Shown: in pieces, positions 29,404-40,244 of the stretch
Layout: each line of letters begins with the position of its first letter
Numbering within the stretch: position 1 is the stretch's first letter
Assembly: GCA_902796905.1 (NCBI GenBank)
Contig: CADBQU010000019.1
Coordinates: 58,576-122,575 of the forward strand
Reading direction: 5' to 3'
Origin: Oscillospiraceae bacterium
GTDB lineage: Bacteria; Bacillota; Clostridia; Oscillospirales; Acutalibacteraceae
Length of the DNA stretch: 64,000 bases
Program-made: the position numbers and the translations under genes
The notes under the pieces: model-generated
Database searches by the model: none
Seen by the model: only the letters and a program-made list of their open reading frames with translations
Told to the model about the DNA's origin: nothing

Positions 29404-29916
29404 ATGTTTTTATCAGTGCTTTCTGCAATGTTTTCGGGAATTATTTATTTTATTTTGCATCCGTACAGCAGCGGTTCTTTTCCTCCGGCACTTTCCAAAA
29501 AAGAAGAAGCCGAACTTATAAAAAAACAGGAGAACGGAGATATTGCCGCAAAAAATAAACTTATAGAGCATAATTTAAGGCTTGTGGCGCATATAGCAAA
29601 AAAATACAGCGGACCCAATATAGATCAGGATGATTTGATTTCAATAGGTACAATCGGGCTTATTAAAGCCATATCTTCGTTTAAAAGCGAAAAAAATATA
29701 AAGCTTGCCACTTATGCTTCCAGATGTATAGAAAATGCTATACTACCAAAAAGCAAAAAAATTAATTTGTTTTTATGCGGCAAGCCCAAAGCCCTTTGGG
29801 CTTTGCAAAAGCAAAAAATGCTTTTGCCCCAAAAACAAAATTTGTTTTTGGGAGGCTTGCCGCCCCCCTGTAATTTAATATATTTGCCGAAAAAGCAACC
29901 ACCCTTTATTTTTTAA
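29404..29916 (+). CDS. sigK: RNA polymerase sigma-K, N-terminal half (gene split by an intervening element)
   Basis: Late mother-cell sigma factor. Residues 1-111 are genuine SigK: a hydrophobic pro-sequence (MFLSVLSAMFSGIIYFIL), FPPALSKKEEAEL, the core-binding region HNLRLVAHIAKKY, and DLISIGTIGLIKA with KLATYASRCIEN in region 2. True homology ends at codon AAT 29734-29736. The remaining 59 residues to 29916 are read-through of the intervening element and its hairpin. Joining at AATG to the half at 39885 restores a 230 aa protein. The start has AAGGAATG upstream. As it stands, the gene cannot make a working sigma factor. Confidence 0.95.
   Translation: MFLSVLSAMFSGIIYFILHPYSSGSFPPALSKKEEAELIKKQENGDIAAKNKLIEHNLRLVAHIAKKYSGPNIDQDDLISIGTIGLIKAISSFKSEKNIKLATYASRCIENAILPKSKKINLFLCGKPKALWALQKQKMLLPQKQNLFLGGLPPPCNLIYLPKKQPPFIF
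29723..29747 (+). other. Left attachment site (attL) of the sigK element
   Basis: GTATAGAA-AATG-CTATACT (29726-29744). The AATG core at 29734-29737 is shared with the right site at 39882-39885, with GTATAG eight bases before the core in both. The right arm CTATACT is the inverted complement of the left arm AGTATAG at the other site. Confidence 0.88.
29777..29863. repeat. Three-hairpin cloverleaf element I (inside left end of sigK element)
   Basis: A perfect 10 bp closing stem GCGGCAAGCC/GGCTTGCCGC (29777-29786, 29854-29863). Arms are CAAAGCCC/GGGCTTTG (29787-29805, TTT loop), CAAAAGCA/TGCTTTTG (29806-29826) and CCCAAAAACAA/TTGTTTTTGGG (29828-29852). The arm order is the reverse of elements H and J, so this copy is in the opposite orientation. 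It starts 40 bp from attL. Confidence 0.88.
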
Positions 29917-29931
29917 AAATAAATGGTGGTT
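29897..29931. terminator. Terminator at the end of the hydrogenase operon
   Basis: AACCACC-C-TTTATTTTT pairs with AAAAATAAATGGTGGTT with one mismatch (29897-29931). It serves the minus-strand hydrogenase operon, which ends at 29991. Confidence 0.65.
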
Positions 29932-29990
29932 TATTTGCAAATTGGTTTTAAATATAAAAAATAATCTATAATTTATTTATATTTAAAAAA

Positions 29991-31415
29991 TTATTTTAAA
30001 ACCGAAATAGCGTCGGTTATGGTTTTTTCATAAGCTTCCATACCGTATTTGTCTACTTCCGCTTTGTTCTTTTCGCCGTGGGTTAAACAACCGGCACCGC
30101 CTATACAGCCTCCGTTGCAAGCCATGCCTTCAATAAAGTTTACGTTGCTTATGCCTTTGCTCTTTTTAAGCAAAGCCACTTTGCAGGCTTCTATGCCGTC
30201 GCAAGAACAGGCGTTTAACTCAAAATCGGTATCTCCGTGTTCTTTAAGTCCCTGTTTTACTGCGTCTGCCAAGCCTCCGCAACGGGCAAAAATTCTGCCA
30301 AAGTAAGAAGCATTGTCCAATACGCTTTCTCCTAAGGTGGTAATATCTAAATCTTTGCTGTCAAAAAGTGCTTGTAACTCTTCAAAAGTCATAGCGGCGT
30401 CTACATAAGGCCTTACTTCCTTTTTTTGTACTTCGGCTTTTTTTGCGGTGCAAGGACCTATAAAAACTATTTTGCAGGGGTCGTTATGCTCTTTAATATA
30501 TTTTGCTATGGTTGCCATAGGCGAAAGGTTATGAGAAATAAACGGTACTAAATCGGGAAAATTCTTTTCAATGTAATTTACAAAAGCCGGGCAGCAGGAA
30601 CTTGTTAAAAATCCTTTTTCGGCAAGTTCTCTCGATTCGGCGTCCGCTACCATATCTGCGCCTAAAGCCGCTTCTATAACGGTGTAAAAACCAAGCTCTT
30701 TCAAACCGGTAATAACCTGACCTAATTTTGCGTATGTAAACTGACTTGAAATAGAAGGAGCCACAACGGCATAAACCTTGTAGTTTTTATTGTTGTTGCT
30801 TTTTTTAATAATATCTATAACATCTAAAATAAAAGATTTATCGGTAATGGCACCAAACGGGCACTGATAAACGCAGGCGCCGCAGGCTATACATTTATGG
30901 TTATCTATTGCGGCGGCTTTATTTTCGTTCATGTGTATTGCTTTTATTTTGCAGGCGTTTTCACATGGACGTTTGCGGTTTATTATTGCCGTATAAGGGC
31001 ACACTTTAGAGCACGCTCCGCATTCTTTACATTTGGTTTTATCTATATGCGCTACATGATTATGGTCAAATTTTATGGCGCCGAATCTGCAAACGTCTTC
31101 ACATCTGTGAGCCAAACATCCTCTGCAGGCGTTTGTAACTTCGTATCCGCCCATAGGGCATTCGTCGCAGGCTATTTCAATAACCTCTATAATGTTTTTG
31201 TTATCATCCCTGCCACCCATTGCAATTTTAACTCTTTCGCTTAAAATTGCGCGTTCTTTATATATGCAGCATCTCATAGTAGGCGTATCGCCGTGTACTA
31301 TGGTTTTGGGAATATCCAAAATATTTTGCAGTAAAGTATCGTTCCATGCAAGCCTTGCAACTTCACGAAGAACTTTATATTTTAAGTGCTGTACCTTTGT
31401 GTCGAATTTTCGCAT
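29991..31415 (-). CDS. [FeFe] hydrogenase, HfsB/group B-like
   Basis: 474 aa. N-terminal Fe-S region: cysteine sets in IACDECPMGGYE and CRGCLAHRCEDVC, then ferredoxin motifs CKECGACSKVCP and CIACGACVYQCP. The H-cluster domain has TSSCCPAFVNYIEK (motif L1), IGPCTAKKAE (L2) and GMACNGGCIGGAG (L3). All four H-cluster cysteines are present. The L2/L3 wording differs from the classical MPCxxKxxE/MACPGGC of HydA1, as in group B and sensory relatives, so H2 production is likely but not certain. It is last in a four-gene operon and lies inside the sigK element. Confidence 0.9.
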   Translation of the reverse strand: MRKFDTKVQHLKYKVLREVARLAWNDTLLQNILDIPKTIVHGDTPTMRCCIYKERAILSERVKIAMGGRDDNKNIIEVIEIACDECPMGGYEVTNACRGCLAHRCEDVCRFGAIKFDHNHVAHIDKTKCKECGACSKVCPYTAIINRKRPCENACKIKAIHMNENKAAAIDNHKCIACGACVYQCPFGAITDKSFILDVIDIIKKSNNNKNYKVYAVVAPSISSQFTYAKLGQVITGLKELGFYTVIEAALGADMVADAESRELAEKGFLTSSCCPAFVNYIEKNFPDLVPFISHNLSPMATIAKYIKEHNDPCKIVFIGPCTAKKAEVQKKEVRPYVDAAMTFEELQALFDSKDLDITTLGESVLDNASYFGRIFARCGGLADAVKQGLKEHGDTDFELNACSCDGIEACKVALLKKSKGISNVNFIEGMACNGGCIGGAGCLTHGEKNKAEVDKYGMEAYEKTITDAISVLK

Positions 31416-31431
31416 TTATATGTATTCTCCT

Positions 31432-38842: not shown

Positions 38843-39847
38843 ATGCGCAGTATTGCCGTTTATGCAAGAAAGTCTAAATTTACGGGTTACGGCGAAAGTA
38901 TAGAAACTCAAAAAAACATTTGTTTAAAAAAAATAGAATTTGAATTTAGCAAACCGTATAAAGAACTGCCGATTTTAATATTTGAAGACGAAGGTTTTTC
39001 GGGGAAAGATACCAATCGGCCTCAGTTTAAAAATATGATAAAGAAAATTAAAAACAACGAAATTTGCGCGGTTTATGTTTATAAGTTAGACAGAATAAGC
39101 CGCAGCGTTGCCGATTTTGCCAATCTTATAACCGTTTTTAATAAATATAACGTTGCTTTTGTTTCGTCAACCGAAAATTACGAAACTCAAACGCCGTTAG
39201 GCAGGGCAATGATGAACATAAGCACGGTATTTGCTCAGCTTGAAAGAGAAACTACAGCCGAAAGAATAAAAGATAATATGTATTTATTGGCAAAAACGGG
39301 AAGATGGCTTGGGGGCGCCGCCCCATTGGGGTATGAAAGCGTAAAGGTTTTAAAAAACGGAGCTATAGATAAAAACGGCGGAAACGGATATAACGGTAAA
39401 AAAGAATATTTTTTTACTTTAAAAATTATAAAAAACGAAGCTTTGGCGGTTGAAAACATTTTTTGTGTTTTTAAAAAAAGCCAATCGTATACAAAAACGG
39501 CAGAAAAATTAAACAATATGGGATTTAAAACCAAAAACAATAATTTTTTTACAAGATATTCCGTAAAATCCGTTTTGCAAAATCCGGTGTATGTTTCGGC
39601 GGATAAGCGTATTTTTAATTATTATAAAAAACAGGGGCTTATTATAAACGGAAGTTTTAACGCCGATAACGGATTGATGATTTTTAATAAAACAAAACAG
39701 CAAAAGGGCAAACATCATATAATAAAAAACAAAAACGAATGGATAGCCGCGGTAGGGTTACATAAAAGCATTGTTAAAAGCAAAGATTTTATAGAAGTAC
39801 AAAATATAATTAAAGAAAAAGAAAAAACAAAGCATACTAAAAAATAA
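38843..39847 (+). CDS. Serine recombinase of the sigK element (SpoIVCA-like, short form)
   Basis: 334 aa. The N-terminal resolvase domain has SIAVYARKSK with the catalytic Ser, VYVYKLDRISRS and QLERETTAERI. The Recombinase domain follows from about 165 (GGAAPLGYESV) to the end. The zinc ribbon and coiled coil that large serine recombinases such as SpoIVCA (about 500 aa) carry after this are absent: the protein stops soon after KSIVKSKDFIEVQNIIKEK. It is encoded next to attR, as expected for the enzyme that cuts out the element and rebuilds sigK. Confidence 0.92.
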   Translation: MRSIAVYARKSKFTGYGESIETQKNICLKKIEFEFSKPYKELPILIFEDEGFSGKDTNRPQFKNMIKKIKNNEICAVYVYKLDRISRSVADFANLITVFNKYNVAFVSSTENYETQTPLGRAMMNISTVFAQLERETTAERIKDNMYLLAKTGRWLGGAAPLGYESVKVLKNGAIDKNGGNGYNGKKEYFFTLKIIKNEALAVENIFCVFKKSQSYTKTAEKLNNMGFKTKNNNFFTRYSVKSVLQNPVYVSADKRIFNYYKKQGLIINGSFNADNGLMIFNKTKQQKGKHHIIKNKNEWIAAVGLHKSIVKSKDFIEVQNIIKEKEKTKHTKK

Positions 39848-39871
39848 ATTGAGTTAAAGCATAAATTTTGC

Positions 39872-39893
39872 GAGTATAGCTAATGAAATACTT
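39872..39893 (+). other. Right attachment site (attR) of the sigK element
   Basis: GAGTATAGCT-AATG-AAATACTT (39872-39893), with the AATG core at 39882-39885 shared with attL. AGTAT and ATACT arms flank the core. It lies 25 bp after the recombinase stop. Confidence 0.88.
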
Positions 39894-40244
39894 ATGTTTT
39901 TCAGAAATAATAAAAAGTGTAACAAAGATGTTTACATAAGCGACCCTATAGATACCGACCACGAGGGCAATACGTTGACTTTAATAGATGTTATTGCAAA
40001 CGAAGATAATATTGTAGAAGATATAGATAAAAAAATTAAAAAGGAAAAACTAAGCGAATACATAAACGAGGTTTTAACCGAGCGTGAAAAAAAGATTATA
40101 ATTTTAAGATACGGTTTAAGCGGCAAAAGGGAACTGCCGCAAAGGGAAGTGGCAAAAAAACTTAATATTTCACGCTCTTATGTATCAAGAATAGAAAAAA
40201 AGGCTTTAAATAAGCTGTTTTTAAGGTTTAATCAAAAAAACTGA
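39894..40244 (+). CDS. sigK: RNA polymerase sigma-K, C-terminal half
   Basis: The coding sense begins at GAA 39885 once joined to the N-terminal half. Read alone, the first ATG is 39894. MFFRNNKKCNKDVYISDPI continues region 2/3, TLTLIDVIANE follows, and region 4 is LTEREKKIIILRYGLSGKRE then LPQREVAKKLNISRSYVSRIEKKAL, the -35-binding helix-turn-helix. The fragment has no ribosome site of its own and should be silent until excision. The protein ends KLFLRFNQKN. Confidence 0.95.
   Translation: MFFRNNKKCNKDVYISDPIDTDHEGNTLTLIDVIANEDNIVEDIDKKIKKEKLSEYINEVLTEREKKIIILRYGLSGKRELPQREVAKKLNISRSYVSRIEKKALNKLFLRFNQKN

Follow-up and report, generated by a model that had tools for sequence, protein, structure and literature searches.

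A skin-like sigK-intervening element with a pared-down serine recombinase and metabolic cargo in an Oscillospiraceae bacterium

A 64,000-nucleotide stretch of contig CADBQU010000019.1 from an Oscillospiraceae bacterium of the family Acutalibacteraceae (hereafter the window, to which coordinates refer) contains a sigK gene split by a 10,148-bp insertion with its own serine recombinase gene. Judged from sequence, the feature is well supported as a skin-like sigK-intervening element. On balance we consider it probable that the element's own short recombinase removes it in the mother cell by precise excision at an AATG core; the enzyme is predicted to use the inner arms of the attachment (att) sites without a directionality factor. 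More tentatively, the enzyme may be a natural, domesticated one-way recombinase. It would have shed its zinc-ribbon/coiled-coil half along with the corresponding outer parts of its sites, and would excise a block of metabolic genes from sigK in every mother cell with no directionality factor. What appears to be new is a variant of sigK elements in which both the recombinase, presumed active, and its sites are pared down.

The insertion splits sigK at the codons ...RCIEN|EILM.... The AATG core stands at both junctions (29734–29737 and 39882–39885), spaced by 10,148 bp, and joining the halves at AATG gave a single open SigK frame of 230 amino acids that reads ...RCIENEILMFFRNN.... This frame bore out the original prediction, which had proposed a split sigK with an exact in-frame repair at AATG, an element of 10,148 bp and half boundaries at 29736 and 39885; the distance of 25 bp that it gave between the recombinase gene and the right core has to be corrected, as the stop codon ends at 39847, 34 bp before the core. 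The N-terminal half (29404–29736, + strand), with the pro-sequence and region 2, matched Sigma70_r2, and its reading frame continues to 29916. Its top NCBIfam matches were the SigK models NF004471 and TIGR02846, both under the full-length cut-offs as expected because only half of the protein is present. The C-terminal half (39885–40244, + strand), with region 4, was delimited by the joined frame and by sequence comparison, and is followed by rplJ (40598–41134, + strand) and then rplL. In the congener G006 (locus L010), an intact sigK lies immediately 5' of rplJ-rplL and matches the right flank of the window, so that this locus, compared at the right flank, looks like an empty site.

An intact sigK elsewhere in the genome, named in the original prediction as a finding that would count against it, was not detected in the host assembly (1.64 Mb in 53 contigs, 97% complete), where the next-best match to sigK was a full-length SigE-like sigma factor (46%). 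SpoIVA and SpoIIID matches over the cut-offs were present in the same genome; by these matches, the organism with the split sigK is one that carries spore-formation genes. The joined SigK was also aligned with 30 intact SigK proteins of relatives, a comparison that the original prediction had proposed. It departed from them at none of 43 invariant and none of 73 nearly invariant positions, the 30 intact proteins themselves departing at 3% of the nearly invariant positions on average, and the C half alone violated none of 32 conserved positions. Therefore, the SigK halves look selected. A sigK that had long been impossible to restore should not look so conserved, although a recently disabled one still could.

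The element belongs to a lineage that recurs at the same junction with related arms in other genomes. A search of 398 genomes of the family with the recombinase as query (E 1e-50) returned 34 matches in 32 genomes, the own genome included. Loci were examined for 30 of the 34 matches: the window and the 18 best others (L068–L085) adjoin a sigK C half, and no sigK piece was found in the flanks of about 1.5 kb of the 11 weaker loci (L086–L096). A further sigK-adjoining recombinase was seen in G024, at a locus cut by a contig end. The order-wide search of 394 genomes, for which a full-length relative of the window recombinase was the query, gave 30 loci, 25 of them adjoining a sigK piece and 5 not. 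A C half was the neighbor in 24 of the 25, and 4 repeated known loci, leaving 21 new ones. In total, a related recombinase adjoins a sigK piece in 41 genomes, the window included (40 others); the family and order sets overlap, and these counts are not a prevalence. In the remaining locus of the 25 (L210, G467), the neighbor of the recombinase is an N half of sigK that reads from the other strand, suggestive of a partial inversion of the element. A quick tree of 66 recombinases showed strong clustering of those associated with sigK, with five label changes needed. The window recombinase sat on a long branch of unsure placement, surrounded by sigK-associated enzymes and by database proteins whose context is unknown. 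No description of this lineage was found in the literature, which here and below means open-licence papers.

The recombinase of the window (38843–39847, + strand) has 334 amino acids, a short length that the original prediction did not remark on, and matched PF00239 and PF07508, which make up a catalytic and a recombinase domain and nothing more. In the resolvase catalytic domain (PF00239), the functional residues R9, S11, D83, R84 and R87 are kept. Neither PF13408 nor the corresponding domain of a relative found a zinc ribbon in this protein, and the coiled coil is likewise absent. This part is retained in all 18 best family relatives and in 39 of the 41 sigK-adjoining recombinases (G024 judged by translation), the two exceptions being the window and G614 of another family; no sigK recombinase without a zinc-ribbon domain was found reported in the literature. 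The 334-amino acid form recurs in the database protein P0001, which has the same end and two substitutions and represents a cluster of five sequences that probably includes the window's own protein too. The relatives that follow share about 52% identity and have 565 amino acids. Some other database proteins are short too, possibly through a cut by a contig end or a frameshift; one of 329 amino acids with a similar end point (P0093) comes from a contig of 1,636 bp. The AlphaFold model (mean predicted local distance difference test score 79, predicted template modelling score 0.57) contains the catalytic domain, a long helix and the recombinase domain, with a C-terminal helix at residues 313–330. 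Its top structural alignment was with entries of a full serine integrase, YokA (also named SprA), at a query template modelling score of 0.64 and a root-mean-square deviation of 6.1. The entry 4bqq, a solved fragment of phiC31 integrase with just these two domains, was also matched, with a poor superposition.

The second short recombinase, that of G614 (L231 8070–9080, 336 amino acids), ends in LCEDSK like the full-length relative in G290, as if an in-frame deletion had taken the domain. From these sequences, the same shortening at sigK apparently arose independently in the family of G614.

The attachment sites are reduced in the same respect as the enzyme. The left junction, attL (29734–29747, + strand), consists of the AATG core and the inner element arm GCTATACT (29737–29744), and the right junction, attR (39873–39885, + strand), of the inner arm AGTATAGC (39873–39880) and the AATG core (39882–39885). 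From the element-side arms of relatives, an attP of the form GAGCCGnnnnGTGAGGATAGC-AAAT-GCTATCCTCACnnnnCGGCTC can be reconstructed. In the window, the inner arms AGTATAGC-TAAT-GCTATACT form an exact 8-bp inverted repeat at arm positions 2–9 with the two arms 10 kb apart, for which the chance is about 3e-5 at a fixed place and this base composition. Relatives also have a conserved outer GG at 18–19 from the central dinucleotide, which falls within the zinc-ribbon motif of LI integrase, placed at attP half-site positions 16–24 in the available text (PMC3783163). At both window sites this outer motif is absent and the inner arms are retained.

The left arm was scored against 37 other loci, with the near-duplicate L077 omitted and G614 scored separately. 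The outer score of the window was under all 37, and that of G614 was over just 2 of the 37, with an inner score over all of them. At left-arm position 19, 36 of the 37 have a G, which is missing from both loci without the zinc-ribbon part, the window and G614. For the right arm, the outer score of the window exceeded 1 and its inner score 10 of 16 others; the outer G, present in 14 of those 16, is absent in the window. Just inside the left junction, nested inverted repeats were seen by eye at 29777–29863, a possible terminator or regulatory hairpin.

In the proposed mechanism, the short enzyme would bind the inner arms, pair attL with attR on one molecule and delete the intervening DNA as a circle. 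With the coiled coil lost, attL x attR recombination would no longer be blocked as it usually is, and the enzyme would be active with no partner protein, its timing set by mother-cell expression. The cargo, which includes a hydrogenase and nucleoside salvage genes, would be lost from the dying mother cell alone; the spore and growing cells would keep it. A partial precedent is LI integrase without its coiled coil, for which 14% intramolecular attL x attR recombination in vivo is given in the available text (PMC5814800).

Several results weigh against such activity. The same LI variant gave only traces in vitro, and removal of the coiled coil left phiC31 integrase inactive (PMC5814800); for an enzyme that lacks the entire zinc-ribbon domain, no example of activity was found in the literature. 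Among 80 positions that do not vary in 17 relatives, the window recombinase is changed at 12, more than in any of these relatives (next G075, 10 of 90), and its end branch in the quick tree is 1.56 compared with a median of 0.23, with the placement of this long row unsure. Most of the 12 changes are conservative substitutions and 68 of the 80 positions are kept; selection on the recombinase, as read from its sequence, has likely changed. No sigma-E-like promoter signal was seen before the window recombinase when 17 recombinases and 29 sigK genes were scanned with a consensus, the signal before sigK being itself patchy. At the sites, the inner score of the window left arm is within range but under 31 of the 37 others and over 6, and two relatives (G154 and G309) lack the GG in the right arm though they keep the zinc-ribbon domain. 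In relatives, the 3' end of the recombinase gene extends into the left outer arm. One deletion could therefore have removed both the left motif and the enzyme part, and only the right arm counts as independent. No restored SigK of the own species was present among the 120 best of 7999 scored proteins (top identity 69%), and the circle-joint and restored-gene patterns had no match in viral contigs, which is a weak test. Finally, neither sigK nor any piece of it was found in four of seven congeners (G001, G003, G004 and G007; 70–90% complete), which still have a SigE-like protein, SpoIIID matches below the cut-off and SpoIVA matches, that of G007 in two pieces; therefore, sigK may be dispensable here. 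Taken together, the skin-like nature of the element in the original prediction stood, on the in-frame repair, the lack of a second sigK, the G006 locus and the lineage at the same codons, whereas its ongoing programmed excision is less well supported, given the loss of the zinc-ribbon/coiled-coil part and the lack of a joined copy among those 120 matches.

These points lead to an alternative in which the C-terminal deletion inactivated the recombinase and left sigK permanently split, the sigma-K stage lost and the halves too young to have decayed. We regard this as unlikely but serious, because sigK was not found in those four congeners, where SpoIVA and SpoIIID matches persist. The fast evolution of the recombinase with its 12 broken invariant positions would fit it, as would the inactivation of phiC31 integrase by coiled-coil deletion and the state of G614, the other locus without the zinc-ribbon part, where sigK is cut twice and the C half ends early. 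Against it stand the fully conserved SigK halves, a recombinase frame that runs uninterrupted for 334 codons both in the window and in P0001 despite the long branch, with most of the invariant positions kept, and the inner arms, which remain an exact inverted repeat whereas the outer attL arm, at a distance of 10 kb from the deletion, is altered.

Excision in trans, by another large serine recombinase or with an accessory protein that supplies the missing domain, appears improbable. The only over-cut-off zinc-ribbon match of the genome belongs to another serine recombinase, whose C-terminal part lies at the start of contig C16 and is cut by the contig end (L191). This find ruled out an earlier assumption that the genome had no other large serine recombinase, and it provides a candidate; however, the part has 51% GC compared with 36% for the rest of its stretch, it was unmatched by the sigK-lineage recombinase query at E 1e-8, and the window sites lack the outer zinc-ribbon motif. 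That the split or the truncation is an assembly artefact is very improbable: the genome is in 53 contigs, but similar junctions occur in other genomes whose sequence differs, and a same-end recombinase with two substitutions stands in the protein database, though the window's own protein is probably in that cluster too.

Between the left junction and the recombinase, the element carries genes for a monomeric [FeFe] hydrogenase of group B1 (29991–31415, - strand; TIGR04105, 561.7 bits against a cut-off of 450), a SpoIIE-type phosphatase (31432–32604, -; PF07228 over the cut-off), an [FeFe] hydrogenase-like protein (32597–34270, -; PF02906 and PF04060 over the cut-off) with a probable PAS domain (22.5 bits against a cut-off of 22.6) and possibly a sensor function, a thioredoxin-like [2Fe-2S] ferredoxin (34381–34626, -; PF01257), an APH-type phosphotransferase (34843–35583, -; PF01636, with TIGR02172 below the cut-off), the purine-nucleoside phosphorylase deoD (35992–36711, +; TIGR00107 over the cut-off), the cytidine deaminase cdd (36936–37385, +; TIGR01354 over the cut-off) and the pyrimidine-nucleoside phosphorylase pdp (37405–38703, +; TIGR02644 over the cut-off). 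At E 1e-30, pdp had a single match in its own genome and a match in one of the seven congeners (G002). No phage genes were recognised beside the recombinase among the nine element genes scanned, the cargo families being metabolic, redox or regulatory. PHROGs gave a strong match for the recombinase alone and weak partial matches for three others (ferredoxin, kinase and one unknown). The idea that the cargo is a recent foreign block was dropped, its GC content being 34.8% compared with 34.5% for the window.

For comparison, 12 other complete elements were considered, with Pfam matches viewed for parts of six of them (30 proteins). Metabolic cargo was seen in G306 (a TRAP transporter, FAD oxidoreductases and a phosphate transporter), G220 (a glycine-betaine ABC transporter), G232 (polysaccharide synthesis) and G028 (rhamnose isomerase and glycosidases), and mobile- or defence-like cargo in G060 (a replication-associated protein) and G251 (helicases). 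No report of metabolic cargo in sigK elements was found in the literature. A helix-turn-helix (HTH) gene lies just inside attL in 7 of the 12 (one of them scanned by profile). It had no homologue among the open reading frames of at least 70 amino acids in the window element, 5 of the 12 others being without it as well, and no recombination directionality factor was recognised in the window element. The missing HTH gene would be in keeping with a recombinase that needs no partner protein.

Two relatives have a further cut in sigK, at the IIK/KYY codons with a shared AAGAA, giving three pieces: in G290 (L166) at 1663–1860, 7883–8038 and 14286–14600, and in G614 at L230 10619–10819 and L231 1998–2168 and 9079–9384. 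The second insertion is about 6.0 kb and 11.2 kb in the two relatives, and in G290 its own serine recombinase adjoins the middle sigK piece. No report of a sigK cut twice was found in the literature. Four split C halves end early at SRSYVS(R) (L073 of G061, L080 of G290, L223 of G479 and L226 of G614). These ends are perhaps a third break or decay; the remainder was searched for in the available stretches of the four relatives and not found.

Serine integrases are widely used as one-way DNA tools, and they differ in the effect of removing the coiled coil, which inactivates phiC31 integrase but leaves LI integrase partly active (PMC5814800). An enzyme shortened by nature along with its sites would directly test how much of the C-terminal part direction control requires. 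If the proposed excision is true, part of the metabolic genome is discarded in the mother cell. The lineage further indicates that sigK-intervening elements, termed an exception in clostridia in 2016 (PMC5025042), are found repeatedly within this order and that metabolic cargo can take the place of phage genes in them.

Among the known systems, the skin of B. subtilis lies inside sigK, is about 48 kb long and is removed by the serine recombinase SpoIVCA of about 500 amino acids; it interrupts the same IENEILM codons as in the window. It is described as prophage-like (PMC5025042), whereas no phage genes were recognised in the window element, which in this respect does not look prophage-derived. 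The skin of C. difficile is alike in that sigK is interrupted, the serine recombinase gene lies inside the element and excision restores sigK; its recombinase CD1231 possesses both a zinc ribbon and a coiled coil, and excision depends on the directionality factor CD1234 (PMC5025042), whereas in the window this part is absent, no partner was recognised and the cargo is metabolic. The gin element of B. cereus also has no phage genes and is removed in sporulation by a serine recombinase, but its target is gerE and it needs GirC and GirX; no mention of metabolic cargo was found in the abstract and discussion of its description (PMC5595907). For the enzyme, a comparable case is LI/A118 integrase without its coiled coil, which shows relaxed direction control and some attL x attR recombination (PMC3783163, PMC5814800, PMC10754689); that protein is a laboratory mutant that lost the coiled coil only, whereas in the window recombinase the whole zinc-ribbon domain is naturally gone.

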